A stretch of DNA of 64,000 nt from Alphaproteobacteria bacterium (lineage in GTDB: Bacteria > Pseudomonadota > Alphaproteobacteria > TMED109). Of this stretch, positions 43,378 through 55,229 are shown piece after piece. The stretch's first letter is position 1. The number at the start of each line of letters is the position of its first letter. The stretch spans positions 1-64,000 of the forward strand of contig JAJEGJ010000081.1 of NCBI GenBank assembly GCA_022819905.1. The letters run 5' to 3'. The notes beneath the pieces were generated by a model. It saw only the letters and a program-made list of their open reading frames with translations, did not search any database and was not told the DNA's origin. A program made the position numbers and the translations under genes.

Positions 43378-44406
43378 TTACCGCAGCGCGAAGCGCATCG
43401 TCAGCATGACGGAGTACCGATCCGTGTCATCGGTCCTTGTCCAGTTAATGACGGGTTCGCTGCCGTCCAGACGCAGATTCGGTGGATGGCTGCGCAGCAG
43501 ACCGCCTCCATAGGCCCCGGACTCGAACGTATCCGAGCGTTTCCACTGAATCTTGAACCCCACGGAGACAGTGTCCGTAAGAGGACGCGAGGCGCCGGCA
43601 AGCACGAGGAATCCGGCCATCGTGTCCTTGAGCGCCCACCGGCCTGCGCTTACCGTCCCGGACAGATTACGGAGTATCTCGTCCGCATTGGGCTGGTCGC
43701 GCCCGGTCAGGATGTCTTCGGGATCGGCGCTTCGGGCCCAGACCCAGGAGAAGTCCTTCCGCACCCGTGTCAGGCCCACGCCCACGCCCGCGAAGGGCGT
43801 CCACCGGCTGCGGTTCGGCCAGTCCCGATAAGCGACGGCGAACACTTCGTGGGAACTGGCGGTCCCCAGCGATTCCTCGCCTATGGACAGTTCGTTGCCG
43901 ATCTTGTCGAAATCCACGCCCGAGGCGTCGGTGGAGGATACCGTCTGATGGAAATCCGTCGTGTTGTAACCATAGACCGCGGCAACCCTGAATCGCGGCG
44001 AAAAACGATACCCGAGTTCCGCTTCCGCGGAAAAACCCCGGCCACCATCGAACGGCGCGGCCCAGCCGTCCCCCGCGCCGCGGTCGGGCGAGGTGCAGCC
44101 GGGTACCGACCGGGCGCGCGGGTTGATGTACTCGTCGCAGATGCTCGCGCGATCGTTGCTTCGGCTGCGCATGGTTACGTCGCCGGAGCCGTTGCCGCCA
44201 AGCGAAACGCTCGCATACAACGGGTCGGCTCGCCCGTGGGCGCACAGCAGCAGCATCGAGCCGACAACTCCGAGCAGCACGGGAACGCGCGCACACAGGG
44301 ACCGCCGGTTGCCAATGGGCCGTAGAACACGTGTTTCGTTCCGACAGTACGCAAAGCTCGCACTCCGCGCGGAGGCATGTTCCATCCTCAAGCTGTTTGC
44401 TTTCAT
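43378..44406 (-). CDS. Outer-membrane beta-barrel protein
   Basis: 342 residues with CGGAGAATCG before the ATG, a long N-region and signal core (VPVLLGVVGSMLLLCAHGRADP), then alternating strands typical of OmpA/OmpW-like barrels (FSAEAELGYRFSPRFRVAAVYGYN, WTPFAGVGVGLTRVRKDF, DRYSVMLTMRFALR). It lacks the usual terminal aromatic residue (ends ALR). It follows the DUF3365 gene by 54 bases on the same strand, so it may be the last gene of the redox cluster. Confidence 0.75.
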   Translation of the reverse strand: MKANSLRMEHASARSASFAYCRNETRVLRPIGNRRSLCARVPVLLGVVGSMLLLCAHGRADPLYASVSLGGNGSGDVTMRSRSNDRASICDEYINPRARSVPGCTSPDRGAGDGWAAPFDGGRGFSAEAELGYRFSPRFRVAAVYGYNTTDFHQTVSSTDASGVDFDKIGNELSIGEESLGTASSHEVFAVAYRDWPNRSRWTPFAGVGVGLTRVRKDFSWVWARSADPEDILTGRDQPNADEILRNLSGTVSAGRWALKDTMAGFLVLAGASRPLTDTVSVGFKIQWKRSDTFESGAYGGGLLRSHPPNLRLDGSEPVINWTRTDDTDRYSVMLTMRFALR

Positions 44407-44460
44407 CGATTCTCCGGAGCCGAAACGCTCACCGCTGTACTCACCGGCCTCGGCGGCACC

Positions 44461-45024
44461 TCAGTCGATGGGGATGCGGATGACCACGCCACCCATCACG
44501 TCGCCCACCGCAAGGTCGGTTCGCGGCGAATCCCTGTGGTTGTTGTGACAGTTGACGCAGGCTTCGACGATTGCGCGATCCGGGTACACCGCCGCGAAAT
44601 ACCGCTCCCCGCCCAGTTCCTCCTCGCCGTAGAAGTTCTCGTCCGGGTTATCGGCCACGAATTCCAGGCCTGCTTGCTCCAGCTCCGTTGCCGGTCCGTT
44701 GTTCCTGTTGATCGGATCGAGCGAGAGCAGGGCGTAGGAGAAGTCCTCGGAGTTGTCCATCACCGTTTCGGCGCCGAAACGGAACATCTGCGCCGGCAGC
44801 GGCAGCGCCGCCTCGTCTTCGAAGTGCTCCGATGCGGTAAGAATCTCCTCGTCGACCGTGAGCCGTTGCACCACCATGCGGGTATAGACCTCGCGATCGG
44901 CCGACATGACCCGGTAGAGCATGTCGGCGACTTGCGGGTAGGGGATTCCTTGGGCCACGGCATCCATCACGATCCCGGCGGCGACCGCGAGCGCGGCAGC
45001 GGTCCTGAGTGTCCTGAATTTCAT
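44461..45024 (-). CDS. DUF3365 monohaem c-type cytochrome-like protein
   Basis: 187 residues starting MKFRTLRTA, chosen because GGAG lies about 10 bases before that ATG. Signal peptide ends near IVMDAVAQ. The Tll0287-like/DUF3365 core includes NRNNGPATELEQAGLEFV and a single haem-binding CVNCHN followed by FxxGDVMGGVVI. Such domains sense or carry electrons in the periplasm. It sits 58 bases downstream of the 11-haem cytochrome. Confidence 0.85.
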   Translation of the reverse strand: MKFRTLRTAAALAVAAGIVMDAVAQGIPYPQVADMLYRVMSADREVYTRMVVQRLTVDEEILTASEHFEDEAALPLPAQMFRFGAETVMDNSEDFSYALLSLDPINRNNGPATELEQAGLEFVADNPDENFYGEEELGGERYFAAVYPDRAIVEACVNCHNNHRDSPRTDLAVGDVMGGVVIRIPID

Positions 45025-45082
45025 TTTGTACGGCTCCATTGCCTGATTCTAAAGCCGGGTTGCCGGGAGGTCACTCCCGCAG

Positions 45083-46570
45083 TCAACGGGCCGCGTCGCC
45101 CTCATCCGCGCCTGAGCGCCGCACGGCCCATTCCATGCTCTCGACGTGGACGGCGGGCGTTCCGCTGAAGTTGCGGTCAACCAGGTCGCCATCGGCCAGC
45201 GCGTCGAGCGAGAACTCCAGACCGTGGCAGTCGAGACAGACGGGCCGGATCATCTTGTCGTTCGGACGCAGGGTGTCGTTCTGGTTGTGATTGGCCGCGA
45301 TCGTTTCGCGGTTTTCGGTCATGGGCATGTGGCAGGTCGCGCAACTCACCCCGGCGCCGGGCGGCGCTTCGCCGGACAGCTCCGCTTGCCAAAGTCGGTG
45401 GTGCGGGCTGTCGGCATAGGCCCGCGTATGGCGATCGTCGTGGCAGGATGCGCAGGCTTCGACGGCCGCCCGTGCCGTGTCCGCATCGTGGGGCCGGTGA
45501 CAGGCGCCGCAATCGAGCGCCCGGTGCGTCGCGGCGTCGGCGCGCATCGGCAGGCGCGCTTCGCCGACAGTCATGTGCGCGCGCGGGACGGGATCGGCGA
45601 GCCAGTCGGCCACGACTCCGGGGACCACGCGCGACAGGCCGATCCTCTCGAGTCCCGCTGCCGGGTCGCGGGGCGGTGCGATTTCGGGATGTTCGCGCAT
45701 GCCGTGCCGGCCCTTGGCGAACGACCGTGCCTGCGGTTCGTGACAGGACCGGCACGCCCCGGTCGACGGCGCCTCGACCCAGTGGGCCGTCACATCGGCC
45801 GGCCCGGAGCCGGCGGCGAGACCCTCCGCATGACACGCGGTGCAATTGACTCCCGCCGCCGCATGGCCGGAACCTGCCCACTGCATGAGAATGTCCGTGT
45901 CGGCGAATGCGGCGTCGGGCGCGACCGCCTCGTCGCGCCCGAGTGCCGTCCCCGAGGTCCGTTCCAGTGCGCGGAAACGCGCGGTCGCTCCGTGGATCGA
46001 CTCGGGCCGCAGCGCCGGTCCGCCGGTGTGCTCGGCCAGGAAGTCCTCGTACAGCGCCCGGTTGTCGTGGTAATTGTGGCAACCCGCCGTTGCACAGGTG
46101 TCGAAGGCGAGGCCCGCGTGGCTCGGACGGTCCAGCCGGACATCCTCGTCGTCTTCCGAGTGGCACGCGACGCAGAAGTCCATGGCGACCGTGACGGCGC
46201 CCGTTCGGGTGATCTCGGGCCGGTGCTCGGCATGACAGCTCGTGCACAGGCGCGCATCGAGCCTTTCCCAATAGGCCGCCATTCTCGGGTTGCGGAACAG
46301 CGAGCGGGGATGGCTGTCGGCCGCGGCATCCAATTCATCCTCGTGGCAGTTTCGGCAGGTCTCGTTCAGCGCCCGCTCGGCCGCGGCCTCCGCGGCGAAG
46401 GGAGTTGCCGCATGGCAGGTTTCGCAGGCCATCTCGATCTGATGGTGGGCATCCGTGGTCCTGCCGATGAGCAGCGGGCGGCGGTCGCCTCCCACAAGCA
46501 TCGTGGCCGCAACGTACGCCGCAGCGAGCAGCGTCGTCCCCGTCAACCACAAGACAACCCTCCGCGACAC
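45083..46570 (-). CDS. Periplasmic 11-haem cytochrome c
   Basis: 495 residues from the GTG at 46570, which gives one N-terminal membrane anchor or signal (VVLWLTGTTLLAAAYVAATML). Ten CxxCH haem sites (CETCH, CRNCH, CTSCH, CVACH, CTACH, CRSCH, CGACH, CASCH, CATCH, CLDCH) and one CATAGCH (C-x4-CH) are visible. The number and spacing suggest a cytochrome c3/NapC-NrfB-like electron carrier; I do not recognise a catalytic motif. It starts eight bases after the GPP34-cytochrome gene, so the two are likely translated together. Confidence 0.88.
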   Translation of the reverse strand: MSRRVVLWLTGTTLLAAAYVAATMLVGGDRRPLLIGRTTDAHHQIEMACETCHAATPFAAEAAAERALNETCRNCHEDELDAAADSHPRSLFRNPRMAAYWERLDARLCTSCHAEHRPEITRTGAVTVAMDFCVACHSEDDEDVRLDRPSHAGLAFDTCATAGCHNYHDNRALYEDFLAEHTGGPALRPESIHGATARFRALERTSGTALGRDEAVAPDAAFADTDILMQWAGSGHAAAGVNCTACHAEGLAAGSGPADVTAHWVEAPSTGACRSCHEPQARSFAKGRHGMREHPEIAPPRDPAAGLERIGLSRVVPGVVADWLADPVPRAHMTVGEARLPMRADAATHRALDCGACHRPHDADTARAAVEACASCHDDRHTRAYADSPHHRLWQAELSGEAPPGAGVSCATCHMPMTENRETIAANHNQNDTLRPNDKMIRPVCLDCHGLEFSLDALADGDLVDRNFSGTPAVHVESMEWAVRRSGADEGDAAR

Positions 46571-46577
46571 CGCCGAC

Positions 46578-47753
46578 TCAGTACAGGTACGCCGCGAGAA
46601 TGTGCACGACCAACAGGGCCGGCAGCGGACAGATGGCCGCGACATGCACCCACAGGAGAATACGGCGCGGTTGGCCGGTCCGGCCGACCCCCAACTGCCG
46701 GACGCGGTGGACGGCGCCGATCGCGATGCCGGCGAGCGCACCGGAAAGCAGCGTCGCGAGGTAGAAGCCCATGAGCGCCGCGTTGAAGTTGGAGCCGATA
46801 CGAAAGCCGGTATGGGCGAACAGTGCGAGGACGCAGGCGAGCCCGATGGCGACATGGGCGAAACGCCACCGGCGCAGACTGGCGATACGGGAGACAAGCC
46901 GCTTCCGGACAGCCACGCCGATGACCAGTCCGGCGACGCTAAGCGCCAGCAACAGGTAGCCGCTCCACTGCTGCCAGAACCCGTCGAACCAGAGACTCGA
47001 CCAAACGCTGGGGCCGAACCGGTCCGGAACCGGGATGCGGGGGACCAGCAGCACGGCGCCGGTTCCCGCGACCGCGGCGGCGGAGAGGGACAGCAGCAGT
47101 TTCTGGGAGCGTTCCGCCTGCGCCCTGGCCGCGGACACGATCGTCTGCTGGATGTCCGCAATGGTGCCGGCGACCTCGCGGCCGATCAGGTCCATCCGGC
47201 GCAACAGCGCGATCCGGGATGGCTCGATTTCCCGGTCGGGAAAAACGTCCGGCAGGATCTGGCAGGCGTCGGCCAGCGAGATCAGCGCGATGTCGCGAGG
47301 GTCGGGGACGGGGTCGGCCAGCACACGCTCGATGCGCGCCCTGATCTCCCGTTCCGCGCCGTCATCGCGCGTGGGATGGCGTACGGAGCCGAGCGCCCAA
47401 AGAAACCGCTCCTCGCGCCGTTCCAGGATGCCGCGCTCGACGAGGCTCGCGAGCGCCTGCTCGCGAATCGTGGCGCTGTCCTCGGTAGACAGCACGCGGA
47501 TCCAGGTCTGCGTGTCCGCCGTATCCGTCCGCGAAGCGATCCTGGCGAGAACCGCGTCGAGCATCGGATTGCCGGTCGGATCTTCGGTGATGACAACCAG
47601 AGCCTCAAGGTCGGTGTCGATGCGGTACGCGAAGGCCAGATCCATCAGAATCGCACCGGCCAGCGCGCACTCAAAGGCGTGTTGCCGGATCGGCAGGAAC
47701 GCGCCGTCTTCGTCGCCGAGCAGCAGCAGGATCTCTTCGGTGAATGTCAGCAT
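46578..47753 (-). CDS. GPP34 domain fused to a cytochrome-b-like membrane domain
   Basis: 391 residues. The N-terminal ~200 residues read as a GPP34 (GOLPH3/Vps74-like) domain: LTFTEEILLLLGDEDGAFLP, HAFECALAGAILMDLAF and a Glu/Arg-rich helical end. From about 220 there are five hydrophobic segments with histidines at the helix ends (RFAHVAIGLACVLALFAHTGF, LLWVHVAAICPLPALLVVHIL) that could bind b haem. Nothing like this fusion is familiar to me. It heads the redox cluster on the minus strand, directly before the 11-haem cytochrome. Confidence 0.75.
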   Translation of the reverse strand: MLTFTEEILLLLGDEDGAFLPIRQHAFECALAGAILMDLAFAYRIDTDLEALVVITEDPTGNPMLDAVLARIASRTDTADTQTWIRVLSTEDSATIREQALASLVERGILERREERFLWALGSVRHPTRDDGAEREIRARIERVLADPVPDPRDIALISLADACQILPDVFPDREIEPSRIALLRRMDLIGREVAGTIADIQQTIVSAARAQAERSQKLLLSLSAAAVAGTGAVLLVPRIPVPDRFGPSVWSSLWFDGFWQQWSGYLLLALSVAGLVIGVAVRKRLVSRIASLRRWRFAHVAIGLACVLALFAHTGFRIGSNFNAALMGFYLATLLSGALAGIAIGAVHRVRQLGVGRTGQPRRILLWVHVAAICPLPALLVVHILAAYLY

Positions 47754-48526: not shown

Positions 48527-51500
48527 TCAGTGTGCGGAACAGCAACGGAATCCGATCCGGAAACGGCTGTCGTCATGCGACTGACCGTAGCCCCCGAACC
48601 AGACCAGGACGCCGCCTCCGGAAAGACGCTTGCCGTAACCCAGATTCGCCTCCAGCGACCACATGTCCAGAGCAGTTCCGGGATGCCGGAGGCGATCGAT
48701 CTCCTCCCGCCAAAGCGCGCCAGTTCCGGTCGGCGCGACGTTGCCCCAGCGGGGCGAAACGTGCAGCGACAAGCCCAGGGCGTCCGGCTCACCCAGCGTG
48801 AACGTCACCCCGGCGCCTCGCTCCCGGTAGCCCGCGGCCGAATGCACCGCCAGCGCCCGTCCCTGTGCGTCGATCCGGACATTGCCCTGCTGTACCCGCA
48901 GACCAAGAGCGACCTCTACACCGGATCCGGTCTGTCCGTCCCCGCCGTCGCGGCGCAGATGCACTTCGCCGAAGGGCTCGAATGTCATACCGCCGACACG
49001 GATCGGCCCCGACATCTCGGCGCCCAGCCGTTGCTGATCGACGGCCGCCGACAGTCTGTCGACCGACTCCTCGCCGTCCCCGGTTTCCAGTTCGGCCCAA
49101 GCGGCGTCGGCCCGCAGCGCGAACCTGACCTTGCCGGCGTCCCCGCCAATCCTCCGCCGATATTCGATCAAGCTCATTCGCAGACCGAGATCGGCGGTCC
49201 CGACCAGCCCGGCCGCGTCCCGCACATTTTCCGCCGTGCCCGAGCCGCCGCCGAACATGGTCCACACCGACGCGGTCCCGTCGGACCAGCGCATATACGG
49301 TTGCAGCGCCGTCAGCCTCGTCGTCAGCCTGCCGCTCGATGCGCCCACCTGCCAATCGCCCGTCCCGGAACTGCGCGCCACCGCCACGCCGGCCAGCCAA
49401 CGGTCGCCCAACTCGGCATCGACGCCCAGGTAAGCGGTTCGCAGATCGCCATCGTGCCCGGCATCGTAGCCCAGCACGGTCGGCGCGCCCTCGAAAGTCT
49501 GAAAGTCGCCCTGACCCCAGACGGCCCAGCGACGGCCCGCCGGTTCGCTATCAGCATCGCCTGCGGCGCCGGTATCGTCCACTCCCGGCACCCACTCGAA
49601 CTCCACGTCCCTGAGCGAGGCATCCCAAGCGCCACTCAAGCTGCCCAGGATGCCCAGGACGCCGAAGCTGCCAAAGCCGTTCGGAAGTCCCGATGCGCCA
49701 GGCGGCGATTCACCCGCCATCGGCTGGCCAAAGGCCGATGCGCCGAATTCCCCGGAGGGATACCCCCTGGATTCTGGCGTTGAGCCTGCCGCGCCGTTTA
49801 GCACGCCTGCCGTCAGCCCATCCACGATCTGCCGCCACTCGGCCTTGTCCAGCGGTATGCGCCGCCCGGCGACCGACAACAGCGACTGTTCTCCGACGCC
49901 GGACACCGCCCGCCGGCCCAGCGTCATGCGCGCACTCGACAGATGCGAGCGGGCCATGGCTGCCAGGGCGTTGCCGAGCACGCCGCGCACCAGCCGGTCG
50001 TCCACGCCCGCTGCGAACGTCTGCGTGGCCTTCAGTCCGTCGGCGTCCTCCGCCGTGACCGATACGGCGGCCGACCCGTACACGACCGGTGTCAGCGTGA
50101 GCTGCGATTCCAGCACCTCGACCGTGACCACGTCCGTGTCGGAGGACTCCGCGCGGTAGCTCAGCACGCCGCCGTCGACATCGGAAAAGTACGGCGACAA
50201 ATCCAGACTGACCGGGTTCCCGCCTTCATCGAGCAGCTGTTCGGGAATCGTCCCGGTCGCGGCCGGTGCGTCGTTGACAGGCGACACGGTCACCGTCACC
50301 GTGGCTGAATCCATCAGTCCATCGCCATCGGAGGCGATGTAGGTAAATCGGTCCGTGCCGTGGAAGTTCTGCGCAGGGACATAGATCACGCCGCCGTCGG
50401 CGGCAACGGCGGCCGTCCCGTGGGCCGGCGCCATCACGCTTGCGACGCGCAGGGAGTCGACGTCAGGGTCCGAGTCGTTGGCCAGAACATTCACCGCAAC
50501 GGCTTCGTCCTCGTTCGTTTGTACCTCGTCGTCCGCCGCGGCGGGCTGTTCGTTCAGGTCGATGATCGTCACGACTGCCTGCACGTCGGCTTCCGCTCCC
50601 GGGGCATCGCGCGCGCGCACGGAAAGCGTGTGCTGGCGGGGTTCCGCCTCGTAGTCGTCCCCCGGGCCAACGTACCGCACCGTGCCGTCGCGGGCGTTTA
50701 CGGTGAAACGCTTCCCATCGCCGGAGACCAACTCATGGGTCAGTGGGTCGCCGTCGGGATCCGACGCTGTCAGGCGGCCGAGCTCGACCGGAAGCCTGCT
50801 GCCATCCAGGTTCTCCTTCAGCTTGAAGCGGTAGATCGGCCGGTCGAACGACGGCGCCCGGTTGACCACCTCCACCGTCGCCGTCGCCGAGGCCGCGCCC
50901 CCGGACCCGTCCGAAACCTCCACCCGGATATCCACCGAACCCAACTCGTGCGGCGCCGTCCATCTCGCTTGCGCCCCCCCCCCGGTCCGCCGGCGAAAGC
51001 GCCCGATGGCGCGCTCCACTCATATTCCAGAACGTCGCCGTCCGGGTCCGCCGCCAGCGCCGTCAAGCCAACCTCGCCTCCGCGCGGTACCGCGCAGGGA
51101 TCGCAGCTCGCCGATACCGTAGGCGGGATGTTCGGCGGCGGGGGCGGTGGAGGCGGTGGAGGCGGTGGGTCGTCGTTGTCCGTTATCTTGATCGTGTCCC
51201 CGGTCACGGTGAGGCCGGCCGCCGTGCCGGCGACCTCGACGGTCTCGGCCGGTTCGTCCGCCGCGTCGTCCACCGGCGTCAGGGTGAACGTCCCGCTGCC
51301 GCTGGCGGCGCCGGCCGCGATGACGATCGAGAAGCTGGGCACCGCCGCGTAGTCGGCGGGCGCGGTCGCCGTGCCGTCGCCGACGCTCACCGTGACAGCC
51401 GTCGCCTCGGTGAAGCGGGCCGCGCCGTCGATGGCCGCCGTGACCTCGATGGTCCTGGCGCCGCCGCCCTCGGCCACCGAGTCCGGGCTCGCCGTGAGCG

Positions 51501-54500
51501 TGACCGCCGTCGTCGCAGTTTCGTCGTCGGTCACCGTCACCGGCAGGTCCGCCGTCTGCCCGCCGTAGGTGCCGCCCGACGCCGCATGCGTCAGCGTCTC
51601 CGTGTCGTCGTCCGCATCGTCGTCGTGATCGGCCTCCACCGTAACCGTCTGCGCCGTGCTCCATGTCGAGGTCGTGAACGTCAGGCTGTCGGTGTCCAGG
51701 CTGAGGTCCGTGTCCGCATGCCCCGTGATCGCCACGGTCACCGTGCTGCTCGGTTTGGTCGCAAGTTTCACCGTGTAGGTCGCCTCGTCCCCCTCGGCGA
51801 CGCTCAGCGAATCGGGCGCGATCACGATCCCCGGCGTGTCGTCGTCGCGGATGATCACGCCGAGCTGCTGCGACACCGAGTCGTAGCCTCCTCCCTCGGC
51901 GGTGTGGTCCAGCGTGGCCGAGTCGACAATCCCGTCCTCGTCGTGGGTGCCGGTGACGGTCACCGTCTGCGTCTGGCGCCAGTTCGTGGGCGTGAAGGTG
52001 AGCCGCGACTTGTCGTGCGTCAGGACCGAGTCCAGGACGCCGGAGATGTGCACGGTCACATTGCCCGTCGGCTCGCTGGCGAGCCGGACGGTATAGGGTG
52101 CGGACTCGCCCTCCTTGAGCTCCAGCGGAGACGGCGCGATCACGATCCCGAGCGTGGCGTCGTCGATGGTGTTGACGGTGACCGTGCCGCTCACGCCGGC
52201 GTAGTCGCCGCCCGCGGCCGTGTGCACCAGCGTCGCCGTGTCGTTGCTCGCGTCGGCGTCGGTCCCGGCGGTCACCGTGACCGTTTGCGCCGTGCTCCAG
52301 TTCAAGGTGGTAAACGTCAGGCTGCTGGCGCCGAGCGTCAGGTCCGTGTCCGCGGTGCCGGTGATGGCCACCGTCACCCGGGCCGTCGGCTCGGAAGAGA
52401 GCGCGACCGTGTAGCTGCTGCCGCCGCCCTCGGCCACCGTCACGGCGACCGGGTCAAGCACCAGGCCGGCCGTATCGTCGTCGGTCACCGTCACCGACAG
52501 GTTCGCCGTCTTCCCGGCGTAGTCGCCGCCCGCGGCCGTGTGCACCAGCGTCGCCGTGTCGTTGCTCGCGTCGGTGTCATCATCGGCGGTGACCGTGACG
52601 GTCTGAGCCGTATTCCAGGTCGACGTAGTGAAGGTCAGGCGGTTGGCGCCGAGCGTCAGGTCGGTGCCACCGTCGCCGGTGATGGCCACCATCACCTGGG
52701 CCGTCGGTTCGGAGGCGAGCTTGACCGTGTAGCTGCCGCTGGCGCCCTCGGCCACCGTGACGGTGTTGGCGCTGAAAACGAGGCCGACCGCGTCGTTGTC
52801 GGTGATGGAGATCTCGTCGCCGGTCACCGTGAGGTCCGTCGATGTGCCGGTGACGTCGATGGTCTCGGTGGACTCGGCTATCGAGTCGTTGGCCGGCGTC
52901 AGGGTGAAGCTCCCCGTGCCGCTGGCCGCGCCGGCGGCGATGTTGATGTCGAAGTTCGACACCGCCGCGTAGTCGGCGGGCGCGGTGGCCGTGCCGTCCA
53001 CCACGCTGACCGTGACCGTCTTGGCCTCGGCGAACACCACCGAGCCGTCGATCTCGGCGGTGACCGTGACCGTCCTGGCGCCGCCGTTCTCCGTCACCGA
53101 GTCCGGGCTGGCCGTCAGCGTGACCCCCGTGGGCGCCGTCTCGTCGTCGATTACGGTGACGTCGAGGTCCGCCGACACGTCCGCGTAGTTGCCGCCCGCA
53201 GCCGTCAGCGTGAGCGTCACCTCGTCGTTCATGGCGTCGTCGTCATCGTCCGCCGAGACCGTCACCGACTGCAACGTGTCCCAGGTCGTCGTGGTGAAGG
53301 TGAAAACGGTCTTGTCGAGCGTCAGGTCCGTGCCGGAGTGGCCGGTAATCGTCACCGTCACGTCGGTCGTCGGCAGGGCCGCGAGTTTGAAGGAGTGGGT
53401 ACTGCTGCCGCCCTCCGCCACGGTCAACGTGGAATCGCCCAACGTCCCGCCCCCGTCTTTCAACCCATTCGTTTCGTCATCGTTCGTGGTGACCTCCAGG
53501 CTGGCTACCTTTCCGCTGTAAAGGGAATCGTCGCTCGTGGCGGTGTGCACCAGCGTCGCCGTATCGTCCTGGGCGTCGTTGTCACCGCCGGCCTCCACCG
53601 TGACCATCTGCGCGTCGTTCCAGTTGGCGGTGGTGAAGGTGAGCGACGTCTTGTCGAGCGTCAGGTCCGTGCCGGAGTGGCCGGTGATGGCCACGGCCAC
53701 CGCCTCCGTCGGCTCGCTGTCGAGCTGCACCGTGTAGGTCGCTTCGTCGTCCTCGTCGATGTCCAGCATGTCCGGCGAGACGGAGACGCCGGCAACGTCA
53801 TTGTTGTAGATGTTGATGGTGAAGGTCGGCACAACCAGTCCGTCGTAGTCCGATCCTGTCCCGCTGACCGTGACGTCGAAGCGTATCTGGGGTAGGCGAA
53901 ACGCGCGGCCACCCTCGTCGACGTCATTGTCGGTAACCGCGACATCGATGGCCACCGGTTCGTTCCAGTTCTGCGGCGTGAAGGTGACGGTCGCCTTGCC
54001 GAGCGTCACCGGACCGGGATCCGAGCTCTCGAACGTGACCGTGGTGTTCGCCGTCGGTTCCGTAGCCAGCGCCACGAAGAACCCCATGGAATCCGGGGCC
54101 ACCTCGCCCTGGTGCTCCCAGAAGCCCGCGGCCCAGCGCGGGGAACCGAGCGTCCCGTCCAGCTTCATCGTGTAGCCCCGGGTATCAGCTCTGTCAGGGT
54201 CTAACACGTGAACGGGCAAATCGACGGACAGGCCGGCGTAGTCTCCGCCGCTCGCCTGGTGCGAGATCCTGCCGTACTTGAATATACCCGCCATGTCTTC
54301 ATCGCCCGCCGTCACCATCACCGTTTGGGCCATGCTGTAGTTCTGCCGCGTAAAGGTCAGGCTCGTCTTGTCGAGCGTCAGCATTGCGGATTTCCGCGTG
54401 CACGAGACCCCGTCCTTCTCTAGACACGCGGCGACGTCGTCATGAGCCTGAAGCGCGATCGTGACGGTCGTTGATGGTTCCGCATCCAGCACGACGGTAT

Positions 54501-54627
54501 AGCTGCCGGTCATGCCCTCCGTTACCGTCAATGGGCTTGGCGATACCGTAATGCTGGGAGACTGCGCCAAGGCTGGCACTGCCGCCAGGAGGTTGGCCAC
54601 GAAAATGCCGAACGCGCTTCTTTTCAC
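48527..54627 (-). CDS. Giant repeat autotransporter adhesin, interrupted by a G10 tract
   Basis: GTG start at 54627 with GGAGATAGCC before it; signal peptide ends at AVPALAQ. In order: eight ~100-residue repeats with the signature LTFTxxxWxxAQTVTV; two Calx-beta-like units (TLTASPDSVTENGGARTV, TLTASPDSVAEGGGARTI); a polyproline linker; cadherin-like and Big_17/VCBS-type domains; and an autotransporter barrel (WAVWGQGDFQTFEG, TALQPYMRWSDGTAS, GFGGYGQ-like end). The frame breaks near residue 1215 in a run of ten Gs; one extra G (or two fewer) joins both parts into about 2,033 residues. The very end (FRIGFRCCSAH) lacks the usual terminal aromatic. Surface adhesin inferred. Confidence 0.85.
50974..50983. 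repeat. C10 (G10 on the coding strand) homopolymer in the adhesin gene
   Basis: Ten identical bases. G11 or G8 gives one continuous adhesin frame; G10 truncates it after the repeats and polyproline linker, before the barrel. Consistent with slipped-strand phase variation, a sequencing undercall, or a -1 ribosomal shift. Confidence 0.9.
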
Positions 54628-55229
54628 GGCTATCTCCAGCGCGGCGTGACCGTCGAGCCGCACTTCGGGCTCTCCGCGCCGGCGACCACCCTACCCCGCC
54701 GGGGAGACAACGGATGCCTACGGCGCCGACGCCCGGTCGTGGTGGGCGGCGCCGGGGATAGGTTTGCGGTCAACGAGCGGAGCATTCGCATCGTACGTTC
54801 CGATGTTCGCGCCAAGCCGCCGGTAGCCTCGCAGGCGACCCTGCATGCAGTGCCAGAGCCAACCGCCGACTATCGGGCTGCCGGAGACACTGACGGGACA
54901 TGGCGCAGACAAGTCTCAAAATTTGCGTATCCTCGTGGACTGGATTGCCAAGCGGAAGGTAGGATCGGGGAAAAACAGCGGTATGCGACTTCGTCGCCGT
55001 CGCCTTGCCAAAAACTACCCCCCCCCGCCCCGCGGGAGTCATAAGAGGTAGGCAAGGGCAAGGATCGTCCGGTAGCCTGAATCCCTGAGAGCGCAACGTC
55101 GCGCGCAAGGCTGCGCGAACCCGTCAGCGGCGCCTCAGCAGCGCTTCGACACCGGCGGCCACCGGCATGAACCGGACCGCGAGCAGCGGCGCGAGACGTT
55201 AATGCAGGATGGCTGGTGGTGTTAGAGGC
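54628..55229. other. Intergenic region upstream of the adhesin
   Basis: 602 bases without a convincing gene. Likely contains the adhesin promoter and the end of the LuxR transcript, but I see no clear -35/-10 pair or T-tailed hairpin. A C-rich run (CCCCCCCCGCCCC) lies near 55019-55031. Confidence 0.45.

Follow-up and report, generated by a model that had tools for sequence, protein, structure and literature searches.

The GPP34 domain is otherwise known from the eukaryotic Golgi, as part of GOLPH3 and Vps74, and the question raised by this locus is what such a domain does in a bacterium, where it is joined to a membrane protein and followed by genes for c-type cytochromes. The window, by which we mean the whole 64,000-nucleotide stretch that was analysed, comes from a marine alphaproteobacterium that is probably sponge-associated, as bin names hint at sponge hosts. 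A sequence-only reading had described four genes here, for a GPP34-cytochrome b fusion, an 11-haem cytochrome, a monohaem DUF3365 protein and an outer-membrane barrel, and had proposed that together they carry electrons from the inner membrane to the periplasm or the cell surface. We find that the operon consists of three genes, not four, and probably encodes an inner-membrane electron module. The features are as follows:

46578..47753, minus strand: GPP34-cytochrome b fusion protein, 391 aa (PF05719, E 3.1e-41; 19 distinct loci)
47163..47738, minus strand: GPP34 domain, residues 6-197, predicted to be cytosolic (profile, GOLPH3 fold of the AlphaFold model, positive-inside topology)
46581..47099, minus strand: five-helix membrane domain, with haem-ligand candidates H300 and H314 (helix 3) and H370 and H384 (helix 5) (four His invariant in 15 homologues with three heads)
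45083..46570, minus strand: 11-haem c-type cytochrome, 495 aa, GTG start, N-terminal membrane anchor at residues 3-26 (11 motifs, 34 sequences)
46076..46096, minus strand: CxxxxCH haem site C159-H165 (CATAGCH) of the 11-haem cytochrome (both Cys and the His 100% conserved in 34 sequences)
44461..45039, minus strand: stand-alone haem-Cache (Tll0287-like/DUF3365) protein, 192 aa, exported, monohaem (PF11845, E 3.8e-18)
43378..44406, minus strand: small outer-membrane-barrel-like protein, 342 aa, a neighbour outside the conserved module (sub-threshold OMP_b-brl match)

The first two genes are closely spaced, the gap being 7 nt (46571-46577) rather than the eight bases given before. The assignment of the GPP34 domain stands on two lines of evidence. 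Specifically, the Pfam profile matches residues 6-197 of 391 at 142.1 bits against a curated cut-off of 29.1, and the AlphaFold model of this part, with pLDDT mostly 70-90, has the GOLPH3 fold (Foldseek matches 9qpq and 3kn1, E 2.8e-08 and 4.4e-08, target TM 0.62-0.64). By sequence as well as fold, GOLPH3/Vps74 are its sole clear relatives in the PDB, the one further sequence match being weak (CorC, E 0.08). The window protein thus has a domain in common with GOLPH3/Vps74 by profile and fold, but differs in that the domain is joined to a membrane cytochrome and that three of four PI4P positions are changed. These positions, which we take to be W81, R90, R171 and R174 in human GOLPH3, align with R23 (a variable position), A32, A94 and R97 in the window, where R97, the one residue kept, is not found in all homologues. 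Because one of four is retained, a phosphoinositide role is unsupported, as is inheritance of PI4P binding from GOLPH3. The GPP34 domains of the cytochrome b fusions form one clade (support 99/77), whose nearest group is stand-alone GPP34. We note that the literature found under the name GPP34 is dominated by the insecticidal Gpp34 proteins of Bt, to which the name is unrelated.

The remainder of the fusion protein is, as the earlier reading had it, a five-helix membrane domain, and the positive-inside loops between its hydrophobic helices place GPP34 in the cytosol. Bis-His dihaem cytochromes b typically have a pair of His on each of two helices, with a spacing of about 14 residues, and here H300/H314 and H370/H384, each 14 residues apart, are invariant in all 15 homologues of an alignment that took in three different cytosolic heads. 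The four residues fit two stacked bis-His haems b, which the domain would bind if the pattern holds. The domain weakly resembles cytochrome b561/DUF4405 below the Pfam cut-off, with prokaryotic cytochrome b561 (PF01292) reaching 9.8-12 bits against 30.1; none of the Pfam cytochrome b families matched above cut-off, and no chain was matched in a PDB profile search. AlphaFold, which recovered the GOLPH3 fold in the first half of the protein, gave the membrane domain low confidence (pLDDT ~44-63), and the His pairs are taken from the alignment.

The second gene encodes an 11-haem cytochrome with one C-x4-CH site, as had been noticed at the outset, and all 11 motifs, the unusual one included, are 100% conserved in 34 relatives. 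A further 11 His are at least 97% conserved in the same sequences, which suffices to give all the haems bis-His ligation. The protein therefore resembles a wire or store of electrons more than an enzyme with an open haem. AlphaFold predicts its N-terminal helix (residues 3-26) with pLDDT ~80, the mean over the whole protein being 39.9. It scores below the NCBIfam cut-offs for the DmsE and GSU2203 decahaem cytochromes (48.9 against 192.2 bits and 38.9 against 325 bits), and no copy of its gene was found in the plasmid records searched.

The third gene encodes the monohaem DUF3365 protein, also correctly named before, which matches PF11845 (Tll0287-like) at 66.8 bits against a cut-off of 24.1; CxxCH is present in the complete homologues, and a PDB phmmer search found no relative. 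In the window protein every Cys belongs to CxxCH, and the aligned homologues share no other Cys, which means that the axial Cys ligand is absent. A haem-Cache that lacks the axial Cys and is fused to a signalling module binds NO tightly, while stand-alone, Cys-ligated haem-Cache looks redox-related, and stand-alone members are assigned redox rather than NO-sensing roles (PMC12889525). The window protein is like these stand-alone proteins in its PF11845 domain with CxxCH, but differs from them in its setting, third in a cytochrome operon, and in lacking the axial Cys (Tll0287; PMC12889525).

The absence of that ligand, as in the NO-sensing members (PMC12889525), is one point in favour of reading the operon as a redox or NO sensing device, in which the haem-Cache senses, the cytochromes keep it reduced and GPP34 relays its state to the cytosol. 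Rrf2 regulators lie near three GPP34 loci (L002, L006 and L008), NsrR/RirA-like but below cut-offs (the L002 copy scores 122 bits for NsrR and 121 bits for RirA), and NnrS lies near L006. However, eleven haems far exceed what a sensor needs, and neither an output domain nor a regulator accompanies the operon in a conserved way, so that we hold this reading to be quite improbable.

If the three genes form one unit they should travel together, and a survey of gene neighbourhoods shows that they do. GPP34 loci were collected by scanning the genome collection and by searching both relatives and the order to which genome G511 belongs. At every one of the 19 distinct loci so obtained the 11-haem gene lies directly downstream of the GPP34-cytochrome b gene, and the Tll0287 gene is third wherever there is enough sequence (16/16); the same is true of 19/19 loci with flavoprotein or FNR-type heads, which are described below. 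Given the gene order at 19/19 and 16/16 loci, the association is not due to chance. The metagenome-assembled genomes that carry the GPP34 operon are labelled Alpha- and Gammaproteobacteria, and most GPP34-type genomes are metagenome assemblies. Within the class of the window the 11-haem cytochrome is rare, being present in 3 of 385 genomes, one of which (G367) is flavoprotein-headed. In the genome from which the window comes the operon occurs a second time (C29). A second copy is also seen in G002, of the same genus, at L044:7654-10098, where the GPP34-cytochrome b and 11-haem genes are both frame-broken, by decay or assembly error.

The barrel, the fourth part of the conduit as first proposed, behaves differently. 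Its match to OMP_b-brl is sub-threshold (18.5 bits against a cut-off of 28.7), and it adjoins the operon at 2/19 loci, namely the window and L001, a 91%-identical relative, while relatives of the barrel at 78-81% lie away from the operon in G000, G001, G002 and G006. It is on account of this distribution, with paralogues elsewhere in the genus, that we rejected the barrel as a component and count three genes. The same evidence bears on the idea that the barrel lets electrons out to an acceptor outside the cell. In the window a multihaem cytochrome and a barrel-like gene do lie adjacent on one strand, as that idea requires, but the lack of a conserved barrel largely refutes it, no outer-surface or extracellular cytochrome is conserved beside the operon, and we consider an exit to the surface very improbable indeed. 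Known porin-cytochrome barrels are also much larger than 342 aa, and a conduit of the Mtr, Pcc or Uet type was rejected as there is no conserved large barrel. In the Uet system there is a porin along with cytochromes of extracellular and of trihaem type, and UndA resides in the outer membrane. The undecahaem Uet system of Tenderiales (PMC5371394, PMC10734462) and Shewanella UndA resemble the window in having an 11-haem cytochrome, whereas no porin, extracellular or trihaem cytochrome is conserved around operons of the window type, which are set apart from Uet by gene content.

Two observations on surface-type genes were made in passing. On the minus strand of the window a long repeat-rich surface-type protein (48527-54663) is apparently split over overlapping frames, 48527-51019 and 50818-54663, possibly by a frameshift. 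In G002 the ~4 kb that follow the operon include, on the opposite strand, genes for a 9-haem MtrC/F-like cytochrome and for an NAD/FAD/2Fe-2S reductase (L040:3763-6887).

The neighbourhood survey also showed that GPP34 is one of several heads on this operon, and a wider module thus came into view than the earlier reading had seen. The cytochrome b/11-haem/Tll0287 operon occurs with a NirB-like NADH/FAD plus BFD [2Fe-2S] head at 18 loci and with an FNR-type head at one, and for operons of this type heads other than GPP34 are the commoner. The head joined to the membrane domain in G367 and G511 is NirB-like (Pyr_redox_2, Rubredoxin_C and Fer2_BFD), in G527 a BFD and FNR-type head sits on the homologous membrane domain, and in all three genomes homologous 11-haem and Tll0287 genes come next. 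The NirB match of these heads ends at position 459-467 of 794, so the sirohaem part is absent; nor is full-length NirB nitrite reductase with its sirohaem part present in the window protein. The 11-haem gene is present in 21 of the 195 genomes of the G511 order, and 17 further loci inspected there comprise 16 with a NirB-like head and one (L133) with GPP34. The GPP34 operons fall on one side of a 100/99 branch in the 11-haem tree, which is unrooted and holds three flavoprotein/FNR-type sequences on long branches. As they form one clade, a single head replacement is the simplest reading, and the wider spread of the flavoprotein type suggests that it ran from flavoprotein to GPP34.

The surroundings of the flavoprotein type suggest what the module originally served. 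Several of these loci adjoin nitrate ABC transporters, NarK, a NasT-like ANTAR regulator and a single-domain globin. Counted over the flavoprotein/FNR-type loci, a globin lies 1.6-2.2 kb downstream in 13/19, single-domain in eight cases and truncated in five, and 8/19 have NarK or a nitrate ABC transporter within ~8 kb. Across L118-L132, single-domain and truncated globins swap at one position downstream of the operon. In the nitrate cluster of Bradyrhizobium, a flavoprotein and a single-domain haemoglobin make up an NO-detoxification system (PMC4724949). The flavoprotein-type relatives resemble this narK-bjgb-flp-nasC cluster in their NirB-like head and in the nitrate genes and globin nearby, but differ from the Flp/NirB-type flavoproteins in that the head is joined to a membrane cytochrome b predicted to feed an 11-haem c; the window differs further, with a GPP34 head and no nitrogen genes nearby (PMC4724949). 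Among the GPP34-type loci examined, none has a globin or nitrate transporter, and in the host genus (G000, G001, G002 and G006) there is neither a separate NirB-like reductase nor, in its GPP34-type genomes, NarK above cut-off, so a nitrogen-oxide role may have been lost. No FNR- or NsrR-like operator patterns were found upstream of the operons.

We propose, with somewhat better than even confidence, that the module most likely moves electrons across the inner membrane, between the cytosol or quinone pool and an 11-haem wire in the periplasm, that this function was linked to nitrogen-oxide metabolism in the ancestor, and that the head was replaced once by GPP34. Two b haems would be stacked in the membrane domain, at H300/H370 near the cytosol and at H314/H384 near the periplasm, and would exchange electrons with the membrane-anchored 11-haem cytochrome acting as a multi-electron wire or store, with the haem-Cache protein as a periplasmic partner, either an acceptor or an NO/redox-reactive subunit. 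In the relatives the NirB-like NADH/FAD-[2Fe-2S] head would supply the electrons, with NAD(P)H the likely donor, and because this head goes with globins and nitrate transporters the ancestral job was probably NAD(P)H-driven electron supply to periplasmic handling of NO or nitrite. After the NADH head was swapped for GPP34, which has no known cofactor, electrons would have to enter from the quinone pool or a separate reductase, GPP34 acting as a cytosolic docking or membrane-surface module. With NADH entry absent, and with no NirB-like reductase in the host genus, quinol or a docked partner is the donor that we infer. The path from the inner membrane to the periplasm that was first suggested is supported by the invariant His, the anchored 11-haem cytochrome, the gene conservation and the NADH-headed homologues.

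The features that leave the donor of the GPP34 variant to be inferred, namely a head with no known redox cofactor, the absence of the NADH-oxidising head from its clade and that of a NirB-like reductase from the four genomes, would also suit flow in reverse, from a periplasmic donor through the 11-haem cytochrome and dihaem b to quinone, with GPP34 regulating or positioning and head loss reflecting the changed direction. No periplasmic donor enzyme is conserved beside GPP34-type operons, however, and the flavoprotein relatives point to an ancestor in which electrons flowed outwards; we regard reversal as distinctly unlikely. Returning to outward transfer, inner-membrane modules of cytochrome b with multihaem c are known, for example CbcL and those of Hmc/Qrc type, in which membrane b haems pass electrons to periplasmic multihaem c. 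The window set is like these in the predicted b haems and their periplasmic multihaem partner, but differs in its gene set, its 11-haem family and its interchangeable cytosolic heads. In the literature searched, which covered few subscription papers, we found no description of this recurrent three-gene module, whose cytosolic head is either an NADH-oxidising flavoprotein or, by exchange, a Golgi-type domain. The earlier statement that no such system had been described holds to that extent, the GPP34 version being one variant. With this module bacterial GPP34 can be put to the test in a functional setting, and the module ties 11-haem cytochromes and haem-Cache proteins to nitrate/NO gene clusters in possibly culturable organisms.

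GPP34 is also found on other bacterial proteins. N-terminal GPP34 is joined to cytochrome P450 at L042:6462-8546 (C7 of the window's own genome, G000) and at L082, L083, L086 and L096, in several genomes; eight such copies are in the GPP34 tree, their GPP34 domains forming one clade. A GPP34-Rieske [2Fe-2S] fusion has a PepSY_TM gene directly downstream (L045:5729-6673), and a further fusion is to an MFS transporter (L087:5334-7295). At L088, L089, L090, L091 and L092 GPP34 is followed by a C-terminal part of ~200 aa that has no Pfam match and is probably a membrane half, the next gene in L088 and L091 being a Chromate_transp half. The presence of GPP34 on P450, Rieske and MFS proteins and on a membrane part adjacent to a chromate transporter argues for a general docking or membrane-surface role that is not redox-specific. 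One could go further and see in bacterial GPP34 a plug-in adaptor of general use: as a cytosolic module at the N-terminus, it would bring redox enzymes (dihaem cytochrome b, P450, Rieske), and certain transporters as well, to a specific partner or site on the membrane. In the window operon it would functionally take the place of an NADH dehydrogenase head, enlisting a separate donor of electrons. We offer this as a tentative and rather unlikely reading; if true, it would represent a PI4P-independent, possibly ancestral, role of the GOLPH3 fold. Stand-alone GPP34 genes at L097:3760-4936 and L098:4289-5459 lie beside short genes whose starts look, by eye, like STAS/anti-sigma antagonists.
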